Shown here: positions 29,781-36,763 of the stretch, piece by piece
Layout: the number at the start of each line of letters is the position of its first letter
How positions within the stretch are numbered: position 1 is the first letter of the stretch
Origin: a virus
Length of the DNA: 42,872 nt
Strand: one strand, 5' to 3'
IMG/VR virus record: IMGVR_UViG_3300023099_000004
Location: 1 to 42,872 of that record
Program-made: the position numbers and the translations under genes
Notes under the pieces: generated by a model
The model's database searches: none
Told to the model about the DNA's origin: nothing
What the model saw: only the letters and a program-made list of their open reading frames with translations

Positions 29781-30013
29781 GATGCCCTCCTGACTGCGAT
29801 GATGTCGTGAGAATCCCCGGTGTCGGTCCAGCGCAACTGCTTGGCCGTGTAGGTATTGCGATCATCCACATCCCCGCAGCGGAACTGCACCTGGAGCTTG
29901 GTTTCCCCTGTGCGTGGCTCACGGCCATGCGTGGCGTGAAAGCCCTCTGCGATCGGAACAGGCGCCTTCTCAGCTTCCCGGTAGGGCTGGAACGCCTTAG
30001 GCAGTGAAGCCAT
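29777..30013 (-). CDS. Small hypothetical beta protein
   Basis: The product has 78 residues, beta-rich (TGETKLQVQFRCGDVDDRNT, then YTAKQLRWTDTGDSHDIIAV). The ATG at 30013 follows GAGGGG and overlaps the end of the helicase gene by 17 bp. This position just after the helicase suggests a DNA-metabolism accessory role, but there is no family evidence. Confidence 0.6.
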   Translation of the reverse strand: MASLPKAFQPYREAEKAPVPIAEGFHATHGREPRTGETKLQVQFRCGDVDDRNTYTAKQLRWTDTGDSHDIIAVRRAS

Positions 30014-31409
30014 CTTGCATCCCCTCAATCCGGTTCGTGTCGCCGTTCAGGAACACGTTGATCTCACCACAGCGGCCAGGGAGGCCCATGCGGACCTTCA
30101 CCACGGTCAGGGTGCCTTCGTTCTTCGTCTTGTCCGGGCGGTGGTAAATCAGGCCGTAGTCGGCTTTGTTCGCCCAATTGGCTGAGCCTGAAACGTCATA
30201 CAGGCCAGGCTTGCCGTTCATGCCCTTCTGGGGCTTCGTGGGATGCGCCACGACCCAGAGCGAGATGTTGTAGCGGCGGGCAAATGACTTCAGCGCCCGG
30301 ATGGCCCTTCCGATATATTCCGTCTCGGTTTCGTGCGGGTGCCGCTTGTGTTCCAGCTCGTTCCAGGGATCGAGAACGATCACCCTCGCCCCATCCCGGA
30401 TCACCGCGATGCGCATCAGGTCGATGTAGCGCTTGAGATCGATCTCTTCGCTTTCGTCCAATGCGTTCGAAATGATGGTTACGTGATGCTCCAGGCGCTC
30501 AATCGCCACGGCGCGGTTGGGATTGTTCGACAGGTCGTTTGTGCCCAGCAGGGCCTTTGCCAGACCGTTGAGCAGGATCGGCTTGGCCATCGTCTCGAAG
30601 CTGGCGATGCAGACCGGTACGCCCTTGCTGACACAGTGGGCAAGGATGGTGTTAATCACCGTCGACTTGCCCATGTTGGAAAAACCGGAGAACACGGTGA
30701 GCGTACCCAGCGCCACGTTCATCAGCGGATTGAGGTCAGTGATACCCGTATCCATCGCCTGAACCTCAACCTCGTCAGGGAAGTCCGAGAAGCGGTGCAG
30801 GCCTTCGACCGGATAGGGCTTTGCCTTGTTGAGCAGTTCGACAACCGCCGGCTGCCCCAGCTTGACCAGGACATCGTTCAGATCCTTGCAGCCCTCAGGG
30901 TATTCGACGAACTTGCAGCGCTCTGCGCCAAGGATCGAACACAGGTCCCGCGCCAGCAGCCGGCCCGGCTTGTCGCTGTCGGTCGCCAGGATGATGGTCT
31001 TGATCTGCTTGAGCTGTTCTTCCGTTTCGTAGAGGTAGGAATACCGCTTGGCGTTGACCGGATCATCCACCTGTTCTGACGGCGCGCCATTGGGGACCGA
31101 GACGACATTGTGAAACCCACAGGCCATTGCGGCCAGGGCGTCGAACTCGCCTTCAGTTATGATCAGGTCATGCGGAGCGGTGGATAGGATTTCGGCGTTC
31201 CACAGGCACAAGCGCCCGCCCTTGTCCATTTCGTGCCGCTTCTCGCTGGTGAGGCGGTACTTGCGGTTCACTACCCGGCCTTCCAGCAGATACGGGAAGC
31301 ACAGCCATTGCCCCCCATGCCGAGCCTGGGTGGACACGCCCATAGCCTCCGCTGGCGTGGATAGGTTGCCGCGCTGGTCCAGCCATTCCTTGTGCCGTTG
31401 GTGTATCAC
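29997..31409 (-). CDS. TOPRIM-helicase, T7 gp4-like (primase-helicase without its zinc domain)
   Basis: The product has 470 residues. The primase TOPRIM fold shows IITEGEFDALA with Glu86 and LATDSDKPG with Asp144/Asp146. The RecA-like helicase domain shows the Walker A motif GFSNMGKST at 242-250, VIVLDPWNE as Walker B and WVVAHPTKP. It would unwind the fork and make primers. The start is GTG at 31409, five bases after AGGAGG. The zinc ribbon that T7 gp4 carries at its N-terminus is encoded upstream in another frame. Confidence 0.87.
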   Translation of the reverse strand: MIHQRHKEWLDQRGNLSTPAEAMGVSTQARHGGQWLCFPYLLEGRVVNRKYRLTSEKRHEMDKGGRLCLWNAEILSTAPHDLIITEGEFDALAAMACGFHNVVSVPNGAPSEQVDDPVNAKRYSYLYETEEQLKQIKTIILATDSDKPGRLLARDLCSILGAERCKFVEYPEGCKDLNDVLVKLGQPAVVELLNKAKPYPVEGLHRFSDFPDEVEVQAMDTGITDLNPLMNVALGTLTVFSGFSNMGKSTVINTILAHCVSKGVPVCIASFETMAKPILLNGLAKALLGTNDLSNNPNRAVAIERLEHHVTIISNALDESEEIDLKRYIDLMRIAVIRDGARVIVLDPWNELEHKRHPHETETEYIGRAIRALKSFARRYNISLWVVAHPTKPQKGMNGKPGLYDVSGSANWANKADYGLIYHRPDKTKNEGTLTVVKVRMGLPGRCGEINVFLNGDTNRIEGMQDGFTA

Positions 31410-31560
31410 CCGTTCCTCCTGAAAATCCGCAGTTGTGGCAAAAATAAACGAAACCGGTCTGGGTCGATGAAACTGAAAGGCAGCGATCGGTTTTGTTCTT
31501 CCGCCGGTGGCTGCACTCTGGGCAAAGCATCTTGCCGGTTCGCTTGGGGAGCCAGGTCAT
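31168..31560 (-). CDS. Primase zinc-ribbon protein in a separate frame
   Basis: The first 49 residues are a clear T7 gp4-type zinc ribbon: CPECSH with Cys13/16 and FCHNCGFSGG with Cys41/44. Beyond this the frame stays open for about 80 more residues of low-quality, Gly/Pro/Arg-rich sequence that overlaps the helicase gene. The start overlaps the initiator stop by four bases. Either a short zinc protein acts in trans, or the ribosome shifts frame near TTTT (31422-31425) into the helicase frame, which has no stop there. Confidence 0.6.
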   Translation of the reverse strand: MTWLPKRTGKMLCPECSHRRKNKTDRCLSVSSTQTGFVYFCHNCGFSGGTGDTPTAQGMAGPARQPIHASGGYGRVHPGSAWGAMAVLPVSAGRPGSEPQVPPHQREAARNGQGRALVPVERRNPIHRSA

Positions 31561-32270
31561 ATGCCCACCACCGGTTCATCCACCGCCTCCTGAACACTGC
31601 GGAGCGCTTGCTGGTGTTTCTTGTTGAGGGCGCCGGAGACGATGTGGAACCAGTTGCCCCGCGTCTTTTCGTCCTGCCCCTTGAGCCAGTCGTCGAGAGA
31701 GCCAAGCTCTGCCTCCAGGTCGCTGATCCCGCTGTAGCGATTGCGCCACCGAGCAAGGTCCGCGTCGTTGAGCTTCACGATCCGACCGAAAAACCCGTAA
31801 TGAGTATTTTCTTCTTTCTTATATTCTTTACCTTCTTCTTCTTTGCCCCGCTGTTGCCCCGCTGTTGCCCCGGTTTCCGTTTCGTCGTTGCCCCGCTCGC
31901 CAGCTTCACGGTCCTGATATTTGGCGTAATTACATATGCTTAGGATGCTTTGACCTTGCCCCGCATTGTGCCCCGCTGTTGCCCCGATTTTTGAACGTGT
32001 TTGAATCATGCCTTCACGGCGTAATTCGGCGATAAAACGGTCAACTTTGGACTTGGACCAGCCCCATGCATCGGCCAGATAACGCTGTGAAAATGATAGC
32101 TCGCCGCGTTCCAGATCGACGGTCTGGCCCTTCACGCGGGCCTTGGTTGCCTTCCAGCAGGCGTTTTCGATCAGCCACACCCAGGCGTCGGCGCGGGAGT
32201 ATTCTCCCTTGAACAGCGGATTGTCCCGCCAGCCCCGGTGGAGCTTGATATACCCGTATTCGCCGCTCAT
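31557..32270 (-). CDS. Replication initiator / helicase-loader-type protein
   Basis: The product has 237 residues. Residues 1-90 have the winged-helix pattern of phage replication proteins: YIKLHRGWRDNPLFK, AWVWLIENACWKA, GELSFSQRYLADAWGWSKSK, VDRFIAELRREGMI. Low-complexity linkers follow (GATAGQQRGKEEEGKEYKKE), then a C-terminal domain with DLARWRNRYSGI and WLKGQDEKTRGNWF, like DnaT/DnaD-type loaders. It lies directly upstream of the helicase frames. The linker region is built from short DNA repeats that look like an origin. Confidence 0.75.
   Translation of the reverse strand: MSGEYGYIKLHRGWRDNPLFKGEYSRADAWVWLIENACWKATKARVKGQTVDLERGELSFSQRYLADAWGWSKSKVDRFIAELRREGMIQTRSKIGATAGHNAGQGQSILSICNYAKYQDREAGERGNDETETGATAGQQRGKEEEGKEYKKEENTHYGFFGRIVKLNDADLARWRNRYSGISDLEAELGSLDDWLKGQDEKTRGNWFHIVSGALNKKHQQALRSVQEAVDEPVVGI
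31801..31985. other. ori: Candidate replication origin: iterons and AT-rich tract inside the initiator gene
   Basis: Seven copies of TTGCCCC (one with GTGCCCC) begin at 31843, 31854, 31865, 31888, 31956, 31968 and 31979 on the plus strand. Five neighbours are spaced 11 or 12 bp, one helical turn. The fuller unit is TTGCCCCGCTG. Directly beside them (31801-31842) is an AT-rich, one-sided pyrimidine tract. Repeats plus an AT-rich segment within an initiator gene is the layout of the lambda O origin. Since 11 is not a multiple of 3, the repeats are read in different frames, so protein repetition cannot explain them. Confidence 0.65.
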
Positions 32271-35404: not shown

Positions 35405-35479
35405 GTACGTTACGTACGTCTAGAACGTACGCCCGTCAAGACGCTTGATAACGTACCTACATTTTACGATTACACGTAC
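35405..35479. promoter_or_regulatory. cI-cro intergenic control region with ACGTAC operators
   Basis: A 19-bp site, CGTACGT, CTAGA, ACGTACG, lies at 35413-35431. A shorter overlapping palindrome, GTACGT-T-ACGTAC, lies at 35405-35417. Single half sites lie at 35450-35456 and 35474-35479. A leftward TTGACG box (35434-35439) faces cro, and a rightward TTGATA (35445-35450) with GATTAC 17 bp further faces cI. The operators overlap both promoters. Confidence 0.65.
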
Positions 35480-36696: not shown

Positions 36697-36763
36697 AACG
36701 TACGATTTTTCTTTCCGTACCGTACGCTTTTCCCTTTACGCACGTACGTACGTACGCTAATTA
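36697..36763 (+). promoter_or_regulatory. Rightward early promoter with ACGTAC operators
   Basis: TTTACG at 36735-36740 and TAATTA at 36758-36763 are separated by 17 bp, a standard spacing. The spacer is filled by ACGTACGTACGTACG (36742-36756), and further ACGTACG-like sites lie at 36698-36704 and 36716-36726. The same motif marks the cI-cro region, so the repressor probably shuts this promoter too. It stands before the long plus-strand operon that starts at 36802. The gap 36604-36801 holds nothing else I can name. Confidence 0.65.

Follow-up and report, generated by a model that had tools for sequence, protein, structure and literature searches.

The replication genes of the window

The window, by which we mean the whole stretch of DNA analysed here, is a bacterial-virus sequence of 42,872 bp from IMG/VR (record IMGVR_UViG_3300023099_000004). 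On its minus strand lies an initiator gene (32270-31557) whose translation gives a protein of 237 amino acids. In the AlphaFold2 model (mean pLDDT 82.7) this protein consists of an N-terminal winged helix (residues ~6-120), a disordered linker (residues 121-157) and a helical C-terminal domain (residues 158-235). The helices of the helix-turn-helix are modelled at residues 62-69 and 73-85, and the wing strands at residues 89-93 and 108-112. Residues 61-80 (SQRYLADAWGWSKSKVDRFI; minus strand, 32031-32090) are the predicted reader of the DNA repeats described below, and the informative helix-turn-helix positions in the window initiator are Gln62, Lys73, Ser74, Asp77 and Arg78.

Judged from profile matches, the DNA-binding domain belongs with the phage initiators of PHROG 35955 and 2514, annotated as 'DnaD-like helicase loader'. 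Both profiles (8.5e-24 for PHROG 35955 and 1.1e-20 for the DnaD-like PHROG 2514) match across the N-terminal domain, and the O-like PHROG 345 matches at 1.8e-5. Foldseek searches with the model retrieved generic winged helices only (CRP, CodY, MarR) and, weakly, the structures 4pql and 4pt7, which we take to be RepA_N initiators; no fold match was found at E <= 0.001. A sequence search of solved structures returned no significant relative of the initiator, and a Pfam scan gave no match to the RepA_N domain PF06970. Unlike the window initiator, which matches PHROG 2514 through its N-terminal part, lambda O matches this profile with a region in the middle and at the C-terminus of its sequence (residues 96-297). 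Given that the two proteins match through different parts, C-terminal modules seem to have been shuffled among different DNA-binding modules.

The stop codon of the initiator gene overlaps, in an ATGA, the start of a zinc-ribbon ORF (CPEC...CHNC; minus strand, 31168-31560), which in turn is followed by a T7 gp4-like primase/helicase with a GTG start (minus strand, 29997-31409), assigned through Pfam (Toprim_4, 3.3e-10; DnaB_C, 7e-10) and PHROG (PHROG 239, 9.1e-76). Proteins of the T7 gp4 type combine the zinc-binding, toprim and RecA-like helicase parts in one chain. In the window, toprim and DnaB_C share one ORF and the zinc-binding domain of the primase lies in a separate ORF, out of frame. 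The helicase frame was shifted by +1 relative to the zinc ribbon in all six cases examined (the window and loci L246, L249, L251, L272 and L280). In L246 and L251 there is no start codon near the homologous helicase start. The zinc ribbon could be either a separate protein made from overlapping genes or the part that a programmed +1 frameshift joins to the helicase; the zero frame has no nearby stop.

The initial annotation regarded the pairing of this initiator with a T7 gp4-like helicase as unusual, a view that did not hold. A homologous helicase adjoins the initiator in ~17 of the 89 homologs described below (most have no adjacent helicase), and loci L263 and L286 carry, by sequence, a DnaB-type helicase beside the initiator. 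In phage P22, gene 18 contains the origin and the next gene, 12, encodes the phage's own DnaB-like helicase; the window likewise combines an initiator with its own helicase, albeit of the toprim/gp4-like type. Considering P22 and the ~17 homologs together, the pairing is not unusual. Among initiators with the window-type C-terminal domain, the helicase is the neighbour in 7/8 cases, versus 9/75 otherwise (Fisher P=2e-5), which is consistent with this domain recruiting the helicase, an association that ancestry could also explain. At locus L334 the initiator homolog is followed, by sequence, by a ParA-like partition gene, and L331-L333 have the same layout; this suggests that these elements (Lachnospiraceae, uncultured) may be phage-plasmids with the same in-gene origin module.

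Iterons in three reading frames

Seven TTGCCCC-type repeats at 31843-31985, several of them 11 or 12 bp apart, had been annotated inside the initiator gene, and we recovered all of them. Six are exact copies of TTGCCCC on the plus strand (starting at 31843, 31854, 31865, 31888, 31956 and 31979) and the seventh is GTGCCCC at 31968, with start-to-start spacings of 11, 11, 23, 68, 12 and 11 bp in order of rising coordinate. Read on the coding (minus) strand, the iterons are GGGGCA(A), spaced in coding order by 11, 12, 68, 23, 11 and 11 bp, and form two clusters 68 bp apart. Cluster I, three GGGGCA copies on the minus strand (31979-31985, 31968-31974 and 31956-31962; spacing 11 and 12 bp), sits within the DNA encoding the wing loop. 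Four GGGGCAA copies on the same strand (31888-31894, 31865-31871, 31854-31860 and 31843-31849; spacing 23, 11 and 11 bp) make up cluster II, which sits together with a purine tract within the DNA encoding the linker. Two stray GGGGCA copies occur further down the gene (31655-31660 and 31675-31680). As had been noted from the start, the repeats are read in different frames: their phases are 0, 2, 2, 1, 0, 2 and 1, and all three reading frames are used.

Over the whole window, GGGGCA is found 36 times on the minus strand and 6 times on the plus strand, and the excess of TTGCCCC is weak (18 versus 10 expected; 2/100 shuffles). The signal resides in clustering and spacing, not in a bare excess of the motif over the window: seven GGGGCA per ~150 bp form the densest 6-mer cluster in the record, the next unrelated 6-mers reaching five. 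When the codons of the initiator gene were exchanged among identical amino acids, 5000 shuffles gave a mean of 1.71 copies of GGGGCA and a maximum of 6, compared to 9 in the real gene (0/5000), so protein sequence and codon usage cannot account for the repeats. Synonymous shuffles of the window gene and of its homologs rule out chance or codon usage as their source.

Adjoining cluster II is a purine- and A-rich tract on the minus strand (31801-31842), a candidate unwinding region, which the initial annotation described as an AT-rich pyrimidine tract. The description was accurate: on the coding strand, the 40 nt past the last iteron have an A+T content of 75% and a purine content of 87.5%, both near the 98th percentile for this gene, and the coding-strand sequence after cluster II is AAGAAGAAGAAGGTAAAGAATATAAGAAAGAAGAAAATAC. 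The same trend is seen in 72 homologs (A+T 0.63 versus 0.45, P=1.7e-12). GC skew, which had been put forward as a check on the origin, shows a shallow local minimum near 32.3-32.7 kb, but one that is confounded by gene direction.

Elsewhere in the window, the palindrome CGTACG occurs five times within 60 bp (36699-36756) and twice more at 35413-35431; the stretch near 36.7 kb is possibly an operator region.

Conservation of position, not of sequence

Homologs of the initiator were collected by protein alone, blind to the motif, from 80 viral and 21 genomic loci, yielding 89 distinct domains. A repeated core lies inside the gene in 86/89 of them, with a spacing of 11 or 12 bp in 80; the repeats fall in more than one frame in 81/89 and in all three frames in 69. 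Spacings of 11 bp were counted 170 times, 12 bp 64 times, 13 bp twice and 10 bp never. The core-picking algorithm favours 11- and 12-bp spacing; simply taking the most frequent 6-mer, whatever its spacing, leaves this picture unchanged. In 59/89 homologs, the count of the best 6-mer lies above that in no fewer than 95% of synonymous shuffles. In several other distant phages, no clear array was found using exact 7-mers.

The core itself varies by clade (GGGGCA, GGGACA, CGGACA, AACGCA, GACGCA, GCGACA, GGGCCA and others), amounting to at least 16 different iteron cores among ~90 diverse homologs, with the 3' CA mostly retained. All copies in one gene carry the same core across all three frames. 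In one frame (AGQ) the change of base 4 from G to A is silent, in the others it alters the protein (GA to GT, RGN to RDN), and it is found in all copies despite these differing effects on the protein. Its presence in every copy and every frame is the clearest sign of selection on the DNA rather than on the protein. Such selection had been proposed for the window from the repeats' different frames, and both the shuffles (0/5000) and the joint change of all copies in three frames agree with it. It had also been asked whether the 11-bp units persist when the encoded linker changes; the homologs go further, the repeat sequence itself switching by clade. Comparison across the initiator family thus shows, at the level of sequence, repeats selected as DNA whose position is conserved and whose sequence is not.

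A complementary scan, blind to protein, searched 2.9 million viral contigs for GGGRCAA occurring three times with a pitch of 11 bp and gave 101 stretches, versus 21 for a reversed-motif control. Among the 101 stretches, all 18 loci that encode a homolog have the array inside the initiator gene on the coding strand; the array was likewise inside the gene at 7/7 homolog-encoding loci in a 12-bp scan and at 1/1 in the reversed control. The 12-bp scan gave 112 stretches, and 11 bp is thus not the sole spacing of GGGRCAA in viral DNA. Most stretches from the motif scan hold no homolog of the window initiator. Two of them contain initiators of PHROG 2509 and 9474 (L018 8574-9566 and L032 436-1401) with in-gene GGGACAA arrays at 11-bp pitch. 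The stretches also include direct-repeat arrays of GGGACAA between genes, some of them near tyrosine integrase genes (L009, L031 and L064; similar arrays in L011, L072, L086 and L102), and the one in L031 adjoins a tmRNA-like 3' end. Possibly, the arrays of L009, L031 and L064 are integrase arm sites that share the 7-mer with initiator iterons.

A second conserved element between the clusters

The least expected result, new here and absent from the initial annotation, is a second conserved DNA element between iteron clusters I and II (minus strand, 31914-31946; codons 109-119), with the pattern TAACCATCTGTAATTAC...AAATATCAG and, in the window, the sequence ATCCTAAGCATATGTAATTACGCCAAATATCAG. 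Scanning codon choice along the aligned gene in 61 homologs under 80% identity, we found, apart from the iterons, a single peak; it covers codons 109-119, which encode ITICNYDKYQ. Codon 110 is xTA in 57/61 homologs, versus ~13 expected, irrespective of whether it encodes Ile, Leu or Val. For the two Tyr codons of this peptide the skews run in opposite directions (TAC in 46/61 and TAT in 41/61), which argues for a sequence rather than plain A/T richness. Its consensus is xTAACCATCTGTAATTACGACAAATATCAG, the window having CTAAGCATATGTAATTACGCCAAATATCAG. In contrast to the iterons, it is constant across clades: distant homologs, among them those of Lachnospiraceae, Staphylococcus, Enterococcus and Vibrio, have a similar element, and it recurs in phages of Firmicutes, Vibrio and Staphylococcus.

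We considered that the element might be a promoter, sense or antisense, and rejected this reading, as inspection by eye for -10 and -35 boxes revealed no convincing -35 or spacing. Compared by eye with the DnaA box and the IHF consensus, the element matched neither, and we found no known site that matches it. Judged by its position, it belongs to the origin proposed below.

Co-variation of the iteron and the recognition helix

If the repeats are read by the protein encoded around them, the two might be expected to change together. From homolog to homolog, distance in iteron sequence correlates with distance in the helix-turn-helix once that in the rest of the domain is removed (partial r 0.43), a value reached by 0/2000 permutations (maximum 0.39). 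For the remainder of the domain, with the helix accounted for, the correlation is 0.09, and random sets of 21 columns gave a mean of 0.09 and a maximum of 0.32. The strongest co-varying column is Lys73, followed by Arg78 and Ser74. On a tree built without the helix-turn-helix, where columns are few and many forks unresolved, the core changes at least 25 times. In this analysis 12 of the cores were aligned by hand and 15 homologs were left out, and the Mantel test and shuffles remove shared ancestry only partly, the independent well-supported pairs numbering three.

A correspondence between residue and base is most readable at base 4. GGGGCA goes with Gln62 in 10/10 cases and GGGACA with another residue in 26/26; among independent pairs that lie on supported branches, Gln62 and base 4 switch together in 3/3, a number below significance. 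Counting only cores with G or A at base 4, and with the rule formed on these same data, initiators with Gln62 or Arg77 have G at this base (25/25) and those with neither have A (39/40), the single misfit being L328 (Arg77, base 4 A). Out of sample, the rule held for 13/15 further homologs from the motif scan (Fisher P=0.03), the exceptions being L012, whose array is mixed, and L184. Because the iteron sequence co-varies with the encoded recognition helix, the initiator and its site appear to evolve as one portable module.

Relation to known origins

In phage lambda the origin lies inside the O gene, where repeated initiator sites are followed by an AT-rich tract (PMC7466680). In lambda O and ori-lambda, as in the Stx phages P27 and 933W, the repeat array lies between the DNA-binding and C-terminal parts, an arrangement shared by the window, and the lambda iterons flank an A+T-rich, strand-asymmetric tract, which is also present here. 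Lambda has four annotated 18-bp iterons spaced by 20-24 bp, whereas the window has seven GGGGCA(A) at 11, 12 and 23 bp in two clusters, one of them inside wing-coding DNA. In lambda, O is followed by the DnaB loader P, while in the window the initiator is followed by the zinc ribbon and the toprim/DnaB_C primase-helicase. Comparing the window's DNA-binding domain to lambda O gave an hhalign probability of 0.2%, with indirect links only (PHROG 345, 391 and 2514), and profile comparison with P22 gp18 found no detectable homology. The lambda-O-style origin first suggested for this locus therefore stands in part: an origin inside the gene is well supported by comparison of sequences, but kinship is not, there being no detectable homology to lambda O and the repeats having an 11-bp pitch. 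By the tests run, the window's system is outside the lambda O family and the comparison with lambda is an analogy.

Closer relatives are found among DnaD-like phage initiators (PHROG 35955, 2514 and 186), such as those of pCB2047-A and PVL, which share the DNA-binding domain family of the window. SUAG_00025 of Sulfitobacter phage pCB2047-A has, at the corresponding place, in-gene GCGGGACA iterons with a pitch of 11 bp, and a TAAC element. In Staphylococcus phage PVL (L342), orf46 carries seven repeats of the CAACATCAAAA type inside the gene and at the same place; their pitch is again 11 bp, the gap is 68 bp as in the window, and a TAACC element is present. By this resemblance, the origin of PVL may lie within orf46. 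Both differ from the window in their iteron sequences, in their C-terminal domains and in having a next gene without helicase annotation. In the open-access literature, to which our search was confined, we found no description of 11-bp in-gene iterons of this initiator family, and a prior description in subscription journals is possible.

Exchange of an initiator's DNA-binding part together with its site has precedents. In classical work with lambda, phi80 and 82 hybrids, the N-terminus of O and ori reportedly determine type specificity together. The RepA_N initiator of plasmid pSK41, of DnaD-like architecture, binds Rep boxes inside its own rep gene through an N-terminal wHTH domain; in this plasmid family the DNA-binding domain and the origin are exchanged as one block, and in the chimeric rep of pPR9/pUSA03, pPR9 took a phage-type N-terminal domain with its origin, and the mini-replicon works (PMC5703833). 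In the window, in-gene repeats are present, the wHTH fold is predicted and the structural match to 4pql/4pt7 is weak. The window initiator differs from the plasmid ones in giving no match to PF06970 and in coming from a phage. For PLE RepA and ICP1 Odn, the DNA-binding domain of the initiator varies together with the iteron origin, the two forming a specificity module that can be exchanged (PMC8263062), although in that case the origin is intergenic, the iterons are semi-palindromes of ~30 bp and the domain is a different one.

A probable origin inside its own initiator gene

Taken at the level of sequence, the array is very probably the phage's theta-type replication origin, embedded in its own initiator gene. 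The N-terminal winged helix of the initiator would bind the seven GGGGCA(A) iterons, one per ~11-bp turn, in the two clusters, and the bound initiators would form a nucleoprotein complex. The purine- and A-rich tract by cluster II would be opened next, whereupon the C-terminal domain could pass the site on to the primase/helicase that the phage encodes directly downstream. Comparable steps are known in lambda, P22, pSK41 (PMC5703833) and PLE (PMC8263062).

Food for discussion is whether the array could instead be an autoregulatory operator, through which the initiator represses its own operon while replication starts elsewhere. The CRP-, CodY- and MarR-like fold matches of the winged helix would suit a regulator, and direct repeats spaced by one helical turn are bound by many wHTH regulators, such as Apl (PMC7498355). 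We nonetheless deem this unlikely, as the array lies at least 285 bp into the gene, beside an A/T-rich tract and with a primase/helicase downstream, and the same layout is an origin in lambda, P22 and pSK41; autoregulation could also coexist with the origin role. A somewhat smaller chance goes to the repeats being bound by some other protein, of the host or of the phage, instead of the encoded wHTH. That GGGRCAA arrays also occur in two other initiator families (L018 and L032) and between genes near integrases (L009, L031 and L064) would fit such a reader, yet a third-party reader does not predict a repeat sequence that co-varies with the recognition helix of the same gene.

Two further readings are barely credible. 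The encoded linker is of low complexity (GATAGQQRGKEEE), and a Gly/Gln-rich protein repeat written in look-alike codons might mimic iterons; this is refuted by copies that encode different peptides in three frames, by the synonymous shuffles and by a base-4 change that occurs in all copies and is synonymous in one frame only. Just as remote is that the array consists of integrase arm-type sites: similar GGGACAA arrays in other phages (L031) do have integrase genes on one side and putative attachment sites on the other, but the array of the window is within the coding sequence of an initiator in a replication module, as it is at 18/18 homolog-bearing loci.

Returning to the in-gene origin, we tentatively suggest, at rather less than even chances, that origins of the DnaD-like family are two-part: freely switching iterons read through a simple helix code (e.g. 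base 4 by Gln62 or Arg77) and a constant TAACC(A/G)T..GTAAWTAYGA...TATCAG that is in place across phyla and takes part in initiation family-wide. Candidate readers of the constant part would then be the helicase, some protein of host replication or transcription, or a face of the initiator that itself stays constant.

A few model phages and plasmids are known to have in-gene iteron origins, and here ~90 diverse homologs share the layout. The second conserved element offers a concrete and testable component of the origin. Phage origins might be predicted from sequence by looking for a wHTH initiator and then for an 11-bp ladder flanking the ICNYxKYQ codons. Finally, the correspondence between residues and bases makes a joint change of specificity in initiator and origin directly testable, and we can begin to read which residue of the protein goes with which letter of the DNA.
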